This document shows positions 56,508 to 61,049 of a stretch of 64,000 nt of DNA, piece by piece. Under the pieces are notes generated by a model. It did no database searches. It saw only the letters and a list, made by a program, of their open reading frames with translations, and was not told the origin of the DNA. The number at the start of each line of letters is the position of its first letter. Position 1 is the first letter of the stretch. This DNA is from Rhodococcus sp. ARC_M5 (GTDB taxonomy: Bacteria; Actinomycetota; Actinomycetes; Mycobacteriales; Mycobacteriaceae), in assembly GCF_022810405.1 (NCBI RefSeq), contig NZ_JALGQE010000003.1:248001-312000 (forward strand), written 5' to 3'. The position numbers were made by a program, and so were the translations under genes.

Positions 56508-58139
56508 ATGCCCGGTAGGCACAGTGCGCCGTCGTCCGCGACGAGCAGCAGAGGGTTCGCCAAGTACGTCGTCGTCGCCGTAGTTCTGCTGCTCGTGGTC
56601 GGCGGCGGAGCGTTTGTCGCGCTGAAGGCCTTCGGGTCCGCCTGCGGCGACACGCAGTCCTACTCGCTGGCCGCTGATCCGGCGATCGCACCCGTGCTGG
56701 AGCAGATCGTCGACAACACCTCCGCCGAGGACCTGGGTTGTGCCGGTATCGAGGTCACCGCCACCGAGTCGGGTCAGGTCTCGGCCGCGGTGGCCAAGGG
56801 CGACGATGTTCCCTCGCTCTGGGTTCCTGATTCGTCGCTGTGGATCGGCAAGACCGTGCGGTCCACCGCGTCGTTGATCGACCTGGCGAGTCAGTCAATT
56901 GCCGGTACACCGGCCGTGCTCGCTGCCCGCAAGGACGAGGTGCCGTTCTTCGACACCTGGCTCACCGCATTGAAGCTCGAAGGCCTGCGTATCGGTAACC
57001 CATTGGCCAACACCACGTCCGACGCGGCCATCCTCGGAGCGGTGGCCGAGGCAGGATCGGACGAGGAGCTGCTCGACGCGGTCGGGTCGGCGCTCGTTCC
57101 CATCGCGCAGGCTCAGGCCGCCACCCGCGGCGAAGCCGATCCGACGGTACGGCTCGACGATCTGGTCGCCGACGGAGGCGTCGCGGTGGTCTCCGAGCAG
57201 GCCTTCCTGGCTTATCAGCAGGACACGGGCGTCGAACTGGGCGCGACGGTGCCGCCGACGGGCACCATTTCCCTGAACTTTCCGCTGGCGGTGACCGAAC
57301 CCGCAGGCGATCGACACGAGACCGCGAAGTCCGTCGGGACGGCACTGGCCGCGGCCATCGAATCCGATCGAGGACAGCAGGCGTTGTCCGACGGCGGGTT
57401 CCGGTCCGCGGACATGGCCCCGCTGGACGCCGATCGTGGGATCGGGGACGTCACACCCCTGACGATCGCCGATCAGCAGGCCGCCGAGTCGACGTTGCGT
57501 CAGTACCAGGTGTTGGCGCTTCCGTCACGGACGCTGGTGATGGAGGACGTCTCGGGATCGATGAACTACAGCGCCGGGGCCGATTCACGTATCGCATTGA
57601 CGGTGCAGGCCAGCGAAACCGGAAATCGGCTCTTCCCCGACAACGCGTCGATGGGGTTGTGGGCTTTCTCGATCGGACTCGGCGGCGAATCGCAGGACTA
57701 CCGTGAGCTCGCACCGATCCGGCGAATGGACGAAAAGGTCGGCAACACCACGCAGCGTGAAGTGTTGCTGCAGCAGACTCGAACGCTTCCGACCCTGGTC
57801 GGAGGTGGTACCGGTCTCTACGACACCACGTTGGCAGCGTTCCGCTCCGTGCAGGAGGGCTACGACCCCGATGCCGTGAACAGCGTCATCATCCTCACCG
57901 ACGGCACCAACGAGGACCCCGCCAGCATCTCGCTCGACGAGCTGCTGTCCACTCTCCGAGCCGAGCAGGACCCGTCCAAGCCGGTCGTCATCGTGACCAT
58001 CGGCATCACCGACGACGCAGATGCCGGTGTGCTGCAACAGATCTCGGCCGCAACCGGTGGGACGAGCTTCGTCGCTCGAAATCCCGCCGAGATCCCCAAC
58101 GTCTTCGTCAATGCGCTGAGAAGCCGTTCTGGTCGCTAA
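56508..58139 (+). CDS. Membrane-anchored substrate-binding/VWA-domain protein 1
   Basis: The 543-aa protein has one N-terminal TM helix (YVVVAVVLLLVVGGGAFVAL, about 20-39) and an extracytoplasmic region resembling bacterial extracellular solute-binding proteins (about 50-320). A von Willebrand A domain follows (about 340-535) with an intact metal-binding MIDAS: DVSGS at 347-351, the Thr in VGGGTGLYDT near 435 and the Asp in IILTDGTNED near 465. Conserved Cys near 46 and 78 may pair. The function is unknown. AGGAG lies at 56494-56498. A close paralog lies at 59394. Confidence 0.88.
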   Translation: MPGRHSAPSSATSSRGFAKYVVVAVVLLLVVGGGAFVALKAFGSACGDTQSYSLAADPAIAPVLEQIVDNTSAEDLGCAGIEVTATESGQVSAAVAKGDDVPSLWVPDSSLWIGKTVRSTASLIDLASQSIAGTPAVLAARKDEVPFFDTWLTALKLEGLRIGNPLANTTSDAAILGAVAEAGSDEELLDAVGSALVPIAQAQAATRGEADPTVRLDDLVADGGVAVVSEQAFLAYQQDTGVELGATVPPTGTISLNFPLAVTEPAGDRHETAKSVGTALAAAIESDRGQQALSDGGFRSADMAPLDADRGIGDVTPLTIADQQAAESTLRQYQVLALPSRTLVMEDVSGSMNYSAGADSRIALTVQASETGNRLFPDNASMGLWAFSIGLGGESQDYRELAPIRRMDEKVGNTTQREVLLQQTRTLPTLVGGGTGLYDTTLAAFRSVQEGYDPDAVNSVIILTDGTNEDPASISLDELLSTLRAEQDPSKPVVIVTIGITDDADAGVLQQISAATGGTSFVARNPAEIPNVFVNALRSRSGR

Positions 58140-58377
58140 CGACGGCATCGACCCGAAAGGTTCGCGACGACAACGAAATTCGCGGCAATCATGGGCTGTG
58201 TGCAGGTTTTCCGAACTGAAATATTCGAATAGTCGATTTCGGGCAACTATTTGCCGGCGTTGGGTCTAGCGTTCGAGATAGTTCGCAGCGGTCTTCAGAC
58301 CACGGCAGGTTATTGACACTCCCGGTCGTCCTCTCCTCACCAGCGAACTTCGCTACTTTCTGACCGGAGGACACCCC
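58140..58377. other. Non-coding region upstream of the rhodopsin gene
   Basis: This 238-bp stretch holds no supported gene. It is more A/T-rich than its surroundings and contains the perfect palindrome TATTCGAATA (58222-58231) and a TTGACA at 58313-58318 without a good -10 at 17 bp. A GGAGG ribosome-binding site ends it. Control of the rhodopsin gene probably lies here. Confidence 0.5.
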
Positions 58378-59235
58378 GTGATACCCGATACTCTCACCAC
58401 CGCCCAACACGACACCATCTACAACATCTTCTCGTTGGTCATTGCGTCGCAGCTCTTTGCTGCGTTGTTCATGATCGCCTGTCTCCCTAGGATTTTGCCC
58501 CGGTACAGGCAGGCCATGTGTGTTGCAGCCGTCGTCTGTGGCATCGCCGCGTACCACTACTTCCGAATCTTCAATTCGTTCAACGACTCGTTTCAGACCG
58601 ACGCGGTCGGTGGACGCGGCACCTACAGCCAAGTTGTAGGAGAGGGGTTCAACGAGGGTTACCGATACGTCGACTGGCTGCTCACTGTGCCGTTGCTTCT
58701 CCTCGAGTTGGTCGCCGTACTGGCGCTCGCGCGCAAGCTTCAGACCAGTCTGCTGCTGCGGCTCATCCCCGCTGCGGCGTTGATGATTGCACTCGGATAT
58801 CCTGGAGAACTGAGTGGGGACAACGGAATTCGAAACCTCTTCGGAACGCTGTCGTCCATTCCCTTCGTCTACATTCTCTACGTCCTGTTCGTAGAGGTCA
58901 CGAAGTCCCTCGACAATCAACCGGAACAGGTGCGCAAGTCGATCGGTCAGCTCAGGCTTCTGCTGCTGATCACGTGGGGTGTGTACCCGATTGCATACCT
59001 GTTGCCGCAGTTGGGCATCGACGGTGCCGCGGCCTGGACCGGTAAGCAGATCGGTTACTCGATAGCCGACATTCTTGCGAAGGTTCTGTACGGTCTGATC
59101 ATCTACCGAATTGCGCGGATCAAGTCCTTCGCTGACGATCCGACCTTCGCCGCGAGTGAACTGTCCACGAGTGAAGCCATGGAACTGGACCCGAGGCACG
59201 AGGAGGATCGACCGATTCCGAGAGGCGCCGCCTGA
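58378..59235 (+). CDS. Xanthorhodopsin-type light-driven proton pump
   Basis: The 285-aa protein has seven membrane helices. Helix B has H60 in GIAAYHYFRIF. Helix C reads YRYVDWLLTVPLLLLE, giving proton acceptor D99, T103 and proton donor E110 (the DTE pattern of outward proton pumps). L107, eight residues after D99, is the green-tuned state. Helix E has MIALGYPGELSG, helix F LLLITWGVYPIAYLLP, and helix G has the retinal lysine K235 in ADILAKVLYGLII. G156 (NLFGTLSSIPF) matches the glycine that opens the carotenoid site in xanthorhodopsin. GTG 58378 has GGAGG 8 nt upstream. No retinal-synthesis gene is in the window. Confidence 0.95.
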   Translation: MIPDTLTTAQHDTIYNIFSLVIASQLFAALFMIACLPRILPRYRQAMCVAAVVCGIAAYHYFRIFNSFNDSFQTDAVGGRGTYSQVVGEGFNEGYRYVDWLLTVPLLLLELVAVLALARKLQTSLLLRLIPAAALMIALGYPGELSGDNGIRNLFGTLSSIPFVYILYVLFVEVTKSLDNQPEQVRKSIGQLRLLLLITWGVYPIAYLLPQLGIDGAAAWTGKQIGYSIADILAKVLYGLIIYRIARIKSFADDPTFAASELSTSEAMELDPRHEEDRPIPRGAA

Positions 59236-59393: not shown

Positions 59394-61049
59394 ATGTCGG
59401 GACGTCACAGCGGTAGTAGTTCCGGGTTCGGCCGCGTGTGGACCTGGACGGTTCTCGCGCTCACTTCGGTGGTCTTCGTGGTCGGTGGCTGGTTCGGAGT
59501 GCAGGCAGTGCGCGCATCCGGCGCGAATTCCTGCGATTCGCTCGATACCGTGTCGCTGGCGGTGGACACCTCCATCGCCGAGCCGGTCGAGCAGATCCTT
59601 TCGCAGGCCGACGAGGTCGCCCGCGGTTGCGTGAACTTCGAGGTCCGGCCCGAGCGGCCCACGGACACCGCCACCGAAATCGCGGGAACCGATGACGATC
59701 GTCCGGACCTGTGGATACCAGATTCGACGCTGTGGCTGCTCAAGACGCTTCGCTCGACCGGTGCCCTGCCCGAGCTGGCGAAGACATCCGTCGCCAACAC
59801 ACTGCCGATCCTGGTGTCGAGTTCCGATGCGGTGCCGGTGACCGATACCTGGCTCAGTGTGCTTCAGCTTCCCGGTCAACGCATCGGTGACCCTCTGACC
59901 AGCAGTGCCTCCAATGCCGCGATTCTCGGTGCGCTGGCCGAATCCGAGGTGGCGATCTCGGACGCGAAGGCCGTATCGGCGGCACTGGTTCCGATGGCGC
60001 AGGATTTCGGGCGCATCGCGGACACTCCGCACGACACGCCGGATCTGGTGGCCCAGGTAGCCGCCGAGGGCGGTACCAGTGTGGCCACCGAACAGGCACT
60101 GCTGGCGTACGAAGCCGGAAATCCGGGATCGACTCTGACCGCATCGGTTCCGCCGACCGGAAGCTACTTCCTCAACTACCCGCTGGCGGTGACCGCTCCT
60201 GCCGGGCCCGAGTACGACCGCGTCAAGCAGGCAGGAACGGCACTGGGCTCCGTTCTCGCCACCGCCTCGGCCGCTGAGACCATGGTGGCAGCAGGCTTCC
60301 GAACGTCCAGTGGCACACCACTTCCCGAGGGCCGAGGCGTCGGGCCCGTCGCGTCGCTCGAGATCAAGAACCCGTTGTCGATCGAGACGACGCTGCGGGA
60401 TTGGGCCGTGCTCGCGCTACCGCTCCGCACCCTCGTCGTCGAGGACGTGTCGGGTTCGATGGCCGCGAGATCGGGCGACTCGACGCGCATCGCGTTGACC
60501 GTCGATGCATCGGTCGGTGCCAACGATCTGTTCAGCGACCAGACCCAGATGGGTCTGTGGGCATTCTCCATCGGACTCGGTGGTGGAAAACAGGACTATC
60601 GAGAACTGGTACCGCTCGGCCCGGTGAGCAATACGTTCGACGGCAAGCCGCAGCGTCAGGCGATCCTCGACGCCATCCGGGGCCTGCCCAGCCTCGTCGG
60701 GGGCGGAACAGGGCTCTACGACACCACGTTGGCGGCGTTCCGGCGGGTGAAGGAGGGGTACGACCCCGACTACGTCAACAGCGTCATCATCCTGACCGAC
60801 GGGGCCAACGAGGACGAGGGCAGCATCAGCCTCGACCAGCTGCTGGCGTCACTGCAGAAGGAACAGGATCCGGTGCGTCCCATCGTGATCATCACGGTCG
60901 GCGTCACCGGCGATGCAGATCCGGTTGCACTGCAGCAGATCTCGGCTGTCACCGGCGGTACGAGCTACGTGGCCGAGGATCCACGGGATATCCCGGAGGT
61001 GTTCGTGAAGGCGCTGAACTCGCGCACCGAACGCCTCGCGGGGGAGTAG
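59394..61049 (+). CDS. Membrane-anchored substrate-binding/VWA-domain protein 2
   Basis: The 551-aa paralog of the gene at 56508 shares its whole layout: TM helix (VWTWTVLALTSVVFVVGGWF, about 15-34), a solute-binding-like region with matching blocks (LWIPDSTLW, ASNAAILGAL, VPPTGSYFLNYPLAV) and a VWA domain with DVSGS at 351-355, VGGGTGLYDTTLAAF and VIILTDGANED. Divergence is spread evenly, so the duplication is old. ATG 59394 is preceded by AGGGGGAG about 8 nt upstream. It meets the convergent ecfT gene with one base between stops. The function is unknown. Confidence 0.88.
   Translation: MSGRHSGSSSGFGRVWTWTVLALTSVVFVVGGWFGVQAVRASGANSCDSLDTVSLAVDTSIAEPVEQILSQADEVARGCVNFEVRPERPTDTATEIAGTDDDRPDLWIPDSTLWLLKTLRSTGALPELAKTSVANTLPILVSSSDAVPVTDTWLSVLQLPGQRIGDPLTSSASNAAILGALAESEVAISDAKAVSAALVPMAQDFGRIADTPHDTPDLVAQVAAEGGTSVATEQALLAYEAGNPGSTLTASVPPTGSYFLNYPLAVTAPAGPEYDRVKQAGTALGSVLATASAAETMVAAGFRTSSGTPLPEGRGVGPVASLEIKNPLSIETTLRDWAVLALPLRTLVVEDVSGSMAARSGDSTRIALTVDASVGANDLFSDQTQMGLWAFSIGLGGGKQDYRELVPLGPVSNTFDGKPQRQAILDAIRGLPSLVGGGTGLYDTTLAAFRRVKEGYDPDYVNSVIILTDGANEDEGSISLDQLLASLQKEQDPVRPIVIITVGVTGDADPVALQQISAVTGGTSYVAEDPRDIPEVFVKALNSRTERLAGE

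Follow-up and report, generated by a model that had tools for sequence, protein, structure and literature searches.

The question raised by this locus is how a light-driven pump could work in a host that appears to lack a known gene for making retinal. In a sequence-only reading, an open reading frame in a 64,000-nucleotide stretch of the genome of Rhodococcus sp. ARC_M5 (the whole stretch analysed, referred to as the window) had been described as a xanthorhodopsin-like proton pump with an open carotenoid-antenna site, new to the mycolic-acid actinobacteria. We examined the identity of the protein, its origin, the supply of its retinal and the case for an antenna.

Opsin gene and predicted fold

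The opsin gene lies at positions 58378..59235 on the plus strand, starts with GTG and encodes a product of 285 amino acids; GGAGG at 58366..58370 on the same strand, 7 nt 5' of the start codon, is a likely ribosome-binding site. The product matched the Pfam profile Bac_rhodopsin (PF01036) with 139 bits (E-value 1.7e-40, cut-off 24.6), and phmmer gave 268.8 bits to RlActR from Rhodoluna lacicola (PDB 9hfk). No NCBIfam model matched at E-values up to 0.01. A profile search of the whole host assembly (5.40 Mb in 78 contigs, completeness listed as 100%) found the window opsin as the sole PF01036 match. An AlphaFold2 model, built with 25 aligned sequences, reached a mean pLDDT of 88.6 and consisted of seven long helices (residues 8-34, 41-71, 94-115, 119-145, 149-180, 183-208 and 217-253) followed by a C-terminal helix. 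Its top matches in the PDB were psXR, RlActR, Gloeobacter rhodopsin (GR), thermophilic rhodopsin, Kin4B8 and xanthorhodopsin (XR), with rmsd values between 1.3 and 2.7 Å. The Bac_rhodopsin domain, the seven helices and the Schiff-base lysine K235 in helix G are the features expected of a type-1 microbial rhodopsin, and the seven-helix protein of the initial description is borne out by both profile and model. A chance reading frame is excluded because Rhodococcus sp. IEGM 1381, another genome of the genus, carries a 96.5% identical orthologue in the same gene order (G033:C11). By sequence and predicted fold, the window opsin is a sound and ordinary actinorhodopsin.

Position in the xanthorhodopsin family

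Sequence identity was highest to RlActR (55.8% over 251 columns), followed by GR and psXR (both 51.8%), Kin4B8 (47.8%) and XR (46.0%). A quick tree was calculated from 98 of the 100 rows of our alignment; it comprises the window's best hits and four outside structures and for that reason does not map the whole family. In this tree XR, GR, psXR and Kin4B8 split from all other rows with an SH-aLRT support of 99, and RlActR sat on a long branch at the base of the actinobacterial side, where its placement is unsure. The phylogeny with Salinibacter and actinobacterial rhodopsins that had been proposed as a check thus groups the window opsin with actinobacterial sequences. We assign it, from these comparisons, to the actinorhodopsin clade of the broad xanthorhodopsin family and not to xanthorhodopsin proper. 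The label "xanthorhodopsin-like" holds for the broad family and for the glycine at XR position 156; it does not hold for the Salinibacter XR branch, outside which the protein falls both in the tree and by its 46.0% identity.

With RlActR the window opsin shares the pump residues, the glycine and the leucine at the spectral position, and the host of RlActR, like the window host, has been reported without the retinal-forming gene blh (PMC7734400). It differs from RlActR in having F155 for Trp, T157 for Leu and S160 for Thr; furthermore, the RlActR host is a freshwater actinobacterium, whereas the window host belongs to the genus of Rhodococcoides trifolii. XR of Salinibacter ruber (PDB 3ddl) is likewise a seven-helix DTE pump with a glycine at 156, and the model superimposes on its chain A with an rmsd of 1.5 Å, but XR lies on the other side of the split, and for the window opsin an antenna is a prediction.

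Pump residues and spectral tuning

The alignment of 100 rows contains 95 own and fetched rows, including 5 identical duplicates and 2 distant rhodopsins, and the corresponding stretches of 5 solved structures. All residues named in the sequence-only reading were found in their expected columns. The retinal Schiff-base lysine K235 (codon 59080..59082, plus strand, as for the following codons), D99 (58672..58674) and E110 (58705..58707) are present in 100 of 100 rows, as are T103 and L107, and H60 (58555..58557) is found in 98. G156 (58843..58845), where the protein opens to the retinal ring, corresponds to XR G156 and GR G178 and is glycine in 97 rows; neither it nor K235 is off-column, which had been named as grounds for doubt. 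We take D99 to be the proton acceptor, H60 its partner and E110 the proton donor. The DTE motif (D99, T103, E110) and the acceptor-linked histidine of broad xanthorhodopsin-family pumps are thus complete, and residues and relatives together support the assignment to the proton-pump type of that family. Green absorption, which had been predicted from L107, is likely, yet ordinary, given that this leucine is invariant in the alignment. RlActR absorbs at 534 nm (PMC11790970).

The actinorhodopsins of an Ornithinimicrobium and two Nesterenkonia (L016, L019, L020) have Phe at the G156 column and Met at the S160 column, which would seem to close the opening; BCD, the Blh family, had no match in any of these genomes.

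We consider it probable that the opsin, a member of the actinorhodopsin clade, depends on retinal and pumps protons outward in green light; it would use retinal scavenged or made by an enzyme outside the known families and may hold a carotenoid at G156. From what is known of the family, light would isomerise the retinal on K235, the Schiff-base proton would pass to D99, paired with H60, and E110 would reprotonate the Schiff base from the cytoplasm. The retinal would come from neighbouring organisms or from an enzyme outside the known families, and the opening at G156 may plausibly accommodate a keto-carotenoid glycoside made by the host, which would act as an antenna. A scan for sigma-70-type promoters gave no promoter-like site for the opsin, which counts against this explanation.

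Genomic neighbourhood

The opsin gene is flanked on the same strand by two genes for von Willebrand factor A (vWA) proteins, one upstream (56508..58139) and one downstream (59394..61049), both recognized by PF00092 and 50% identical to each other. Among the eight open reading frames scanned around the opsin, none matched a carotenoid or retinal family. Rfam gave no matches between 50000 and 64000 of the window, and the terminator scan found one terminator-like site inside the opsin gene where 1.0 was expected.

The R. trifolii opsin has a different setting, next to a divergently placed blh. IEGM 1381 has, in addition to the orthologue, a second opsin, 71% identical, which adjoins another blh (G033:C19:378104-379861); its two opsins fall on different branches. 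The Blh proteins of R. trifolii (L120:7663-8724) and IEGM 1381 (L121:7919-9070), with BCD scores of 229 and 116 bits, are only 28% identical over 289 columns, a hint that this one genus may have gained opsin-blh pairs on more than one occasion.

Distribution and origin

Among named genomes, a scan confirmed at least 576 relatives among 591 stretches, of which the best 80 were kept. The nearest relative among the matches listed was the R. trifolii opsin (83%); the others listed came from Mycolicibacterium, Mycobacterium, Williamsia, Rhodococcus sp. IEGM 1381, Cryobacterium, Pseudonocardia and further taxa. A rhodopsin was found in 3 of 37 genomes of the genus, the window genome included, and PF01036 matched in 13 of 401 genomes of the family, in 11 of them above the cut-off. 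Rhodopsin genes of mycobacteria were published in 2015 and reported there as horizontally acquired (PMC4524478); the gene described from Mycobacterium chlorophenolicum and M. chubuense, termed a proteorhodopsin, belongs to the same protein class and likewise to a mycolic-acid genus. The opsin of M. chlorophenolicum shares 70% tblastn identity with the window opsin, but that genome has blh. The claim that such a pump would be new to mycolic-acid actinobacteria therefore has to be given up: the opsin is uncommon in the family yet already known there, and the "new energy source" is not new in kind. A report of a rhodopsin from Rhodococcus was not found in the open-access literature searched. A distant rhodopsin, with 30-32% tblastn identity to the window opsin, is encoded in two genomes of the family (G074:C1:603974-604669 and G106:C1:252151-252855); in the former it is a second rhodopsin. 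Actinorhodopsins also occur in metagenome bins titled Bifidobacterium breve (L055, L061, L076, L077), names that look wrong.

In the quick tree the window opsin fell into a set of 16 rows, the others from Cryobacterium and the Rhodococcus group, with an SH-aLRT support of 95. A careful tree was built from 76 rows; the 24 aligned rows left out were the 2 distant rhodopsins, the 5 duplicates, one opsin of a Cryobacterium genome that has two, RlActR and 15 rows that were of freshwater origin or on long branches. It united the window opsin, copy 2 of IEGM 1381 and the R. trifolii opsin with supports of 100/100, separated these three and 12 Cryobacterium rows (15 rows) from the remainder by an unstarred branch with 85/94, and set the three apart from most mycobacterial opsins. 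Forcing the three into a 24-row set with most mycobacterial, Williamsia and Pseudonocardia opsins was not rejected (p-AU 0.065); the careful tree does not recover that set as a clade, and holding it together gave p-AU 0.131. A topology test with the 16 mycolic-acid rows alone gave p 3e-90, but it was unfair because these rows are interleaved with others, and we set it aside. The low G+C of the opsin gene (0.577, against 0.652 for the window) is a further hint of transfer. Judged from trees and composition, a transfer of the opsin from Cryobacterium-like donors seems likely.

Absence of known retinal-forming genes

Neither PF15461 (blh/BCD) nor PF03055 (RPE65-type carotenoid oxygenases, which we take to be the family of diox1) had a match in the host genome, whereas the same searches matched relatives. 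For PF15461, an initial search of the host genome had been accompanied by no matching control genome; the positive controls were supplied by the later search. BCD was found in 18 of 31 genome entries of a first set of relatives (16 of 29 distinct genomes, as two were entered twice) and in 27 of 47 genomes of a second set, one of them repeated from the first. Combined, 42 of 75 opsin-bearing genomes, distinct to judge by their coordinates, have BCD and 33 do not, several of the latter being metagenome assemblies that may be incomplete. These 75 genomes cover 67 of the best 80 loci and genomes from the genus and family surveys. PF03055 matched in 11 of the 31 entries, or 10 of the 29 distinct genomes.

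A blh missed inside the window was ruled out by tblastn, in which the Blh proteins of R. trifolii and IEGM 1381 found nothing in the whole window at E-values up to 1. The flanks of the IEGM 1381 opsin-blh segment lie on one host contig (C12:142515-144908 and C12:144861-146364) and overlap by 48 bases; since they abut, the segment is absent from that place, and an assembly gap as the cause of the missing blh is ruled out at this one site. A small unassembled gene remains conceivable elsewhere because the assembly is in 78 contigs. Measured against a self-sufficient photosystem, the host thus shows no retinal-forming gene of its own of blh/BCD or RPE65 type, and its genes for a beta-ring carotenoid (crtB, crtI, a CrtL-type cyclase and a crtE-like gene) are recognized by family matches only.

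According to the sequence-only reading, the pump would be refuted if the genome had no retinal-forming gene, and for the two known families none was found. This does not refute the pump, because Aurantimicrobium minutum, an actinobacterium with a xanthorhodopsin-like pump (XLR), is reported to lack both blh and diox1 and still to make retinal (PMC7734400). Rhodoluna lacicola, which likewise lacks blh, is reported to have pumped only when retinal was supplied (Keffer 2015, cited from PMC7734400). Actinobacterial rhodopsins without blh are therefore already known. They do not appear to form a single lineage: the label requires 13 changes on both trees.

With no known retinal-forming enzyme found in the host genome, the retinal would be either scavenged or made by an enzyme outside the known families. 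Of the two routes we hold scavenging, tentatively, to be the better candidate, at somewhat less than an even chance. The host would take its retinal from neighbours, and the opening at G156 might be an entry hole instead of an antenna site. The empty searches in the host genome fit this route, as does the dependence of R. lacicola on supplied retinal; saccharibacterial rhodopsins without blh are reported to acquire retinal rapidly, and the entrance has been proposed to be a hole in their modelled retinal pocket (PMC9296517). On the other hand, GR, which has the same glycine, is reported in the same source to need more than 20 min to bind added retinal, and BCD was likewise not found in the genomes of the three rows with Phe at the G156 column, which argues against the opening being needed for uptake. 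The retinal made by A. minutum without the known genes also speaks against scavenging.

A possible carotenoid antenna

A refinement compatible with either source of retinal is that the opening at G156 holds a 4-keto, monocyclic, glycosylated carotenoid of the host, which would pass blue-green energy to the retinal as salinixanthin does in XR. We regard this as possible but somewhat doubtful. The residues GR G178, T179, S181, T182, F185, P226 and I227, described as the carotenoid site of GR (PMC9151804), map to window G156, T157, S159, S160, F163, P204 and I205, and all are identical except S160 for T182. T157 is uncommon, being found in 11 of 100 rows including that of GR. Over the wider comparison with GR (PDB 6nwd) the named carotenoid-site residues are equal except three, namely S160 and, counting against an antenna, T199 for S221 and V164 for A186; GR also lies on the opposite side of the well-supported split. 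In addition, F155 replaces the Trp found in XR, GR, psXR, Kin4B8 and RlActR. The glycine itself does align as had been claimed, but it is the norm of the class, and ActR-13023, which has Gly145 at this column, failed to bind canthaxanthin (PMC8113403), a result for which the authors of that report suspected a different native carotenoid.

In the 98-row tree, T157 occurs on separate branches within the opsin family. The exact GR set at eight columns, W-G-T-S-T-F-P-I, was observed in the opsins of Williamsia and of three members of related families (L045, L138, L140, L143).

The carotenoid genes found in the host are crtE, crtB, crtI, and genes for a CrtL-type cyclase, a CrtO-like ketolase (251 bits), a CruF-like hydratase and a CruG/HpnB-like glycosyltransferase; on contig C78, those for the last three proteins share one region with crtE, crtI and crtB. 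A search for blh/brp and for crtB and crtY had been suggested, and it is answered in part: crtB is present and the cyclase is of CrtL type, while blh was not found. The Pfam cut-offs were exceeded by crtB, the lycopene cyclase, the CruF-like protein and the glycosyltransferase, but among the seven carotenoid proteins only crtI exceeded an NCBIfam cut-off, which weakens the case. A second CrtO-like oxidoreductase lies outside the crt cluster (C12:587068-588534), with 158 bits to NF045689, under the cut-off. Rhodococci make mycoloylated keto-carotenoid glucosides. Together with the report of 4-keto-gamma-carotene from Rhodococcus (PMC2889829), the gene set suggests that the host makes a monocyclic keto-carotenoid glycoside. 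An antenna would then be chemically plausible. The glycoside would presumably share the general plan of salinixanthin.

Possible retinal formation from the host's own carotenoid

The second route to retinal, cleavage of the host's own beta-ring carotenoid by an enzyme of no known retinal-forming family, appears rather unlikely to us. It is favoured by the lycopene cyclase (PF05834, 176 bits), whose CrtL type makes a beta-ring likely, by the precedent of A. minutum and by the purifying selection on the opsin described below, but a candidate gene was not found in the host genome. For A. minutum a C50 route has been hypothesised that relies on cyclases of crtYe/Yf type, which this bacterium is reported to have (PMC7734400); in the window genome the corresponding PF18916 search was empty, which speaks against this version of the route, and the cyclase present is the CrtL-type enzyme. 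The PF18916 search did match a Corynebacterium glutamicum control, but it passed the cut-off in only one of three matching control genomes and is for that reason not a strong exclusion. The most elaborate combination, a mycolic-acid bacterium with an antenna-ready pump, retinal from an enzyme of no known family without the C50 cyclase route and a salinixanthin-like keto-carotenoid glycoside as antenna, is in our view improbable.

The protein is ordinary for its class, and it is the setting that is useful. What merits following is the absence of known retinal-forming genes beside an opsin under selection, and IEGM 1381, which has a near-identical opsin at the corresponding site and a further opsin-blh segment elsewhere, offers a natural comparison to a genome in which no blh was found. 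Such paired genomes within one genus make the retinal supply of blh-less bacteria testable, a question left over from the work on Rhodoluna and Aurantimicrobium, and they also allow one to ask whether rhodococcal keto-carotenoid glycosides act as rhodopsin antennas.

Selection on the opsin

Over 285 codons the opsin and its IEGM 1381 orthologue differ by 10 nonsynonymous and 48 synonymous changes (dN/dS 0.065, dS 0.249). Six genes compared in this way span dN/dS values of 0.028-0.164, with three nearby transporter or small-protein genes at 0.028-0.054 and the flanking vWA genes highest, at 0.100 and 0.164. The opsin is under purifying selection, a value that does not isolate the blh-less branch because the genome of the orthologue has blh. 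In all 34 rows from BCD-less genomes K235, D99, W100, T103, W200, Y203, P204, Y227 and D231 are kept. We chose 19 retinal-pocket or pump columns after bacteriorhodopsin; 15 of them are invariant in these 34 rows, and columns 156, 160, 207 and 232 vary. Mean column entropy over the 19 columns was 0.119 in the 34 BCD-less rows and 0.057 in the 42 rows with BCD, compared to 0.866 and 0.766, respectively, over the remaining columns, in a comparison in which the rows are related to one another.

This conservation would hardly be required by a role without retinal, and it favours a retinal-dependent job in the BCD-less genomes. That the opsin is kept for a retinal-free function such as lipid scrambling is accordingly very improbable in our estimation. 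Scrambling has been reported in vitro for a Nanopelagicus actinorhodopsin, and a retinal-independent role was proposed there for opsins without a retinal gene (PMC12805836); the same source knows of no conserved motif tied to scrambling, so that scrambling leaves the pocket conservation unexplained. A retinal-dependent pump thus stays the preferred reading, and we give almost no credence to a recently acquired, functionless gene that is still intact, which the low G+C and the rarity of rhodopsins in the genus would suit but which is opposed by the near-identical copy at the same site in a second species, with few amino acid changes against a dS of 0.249.
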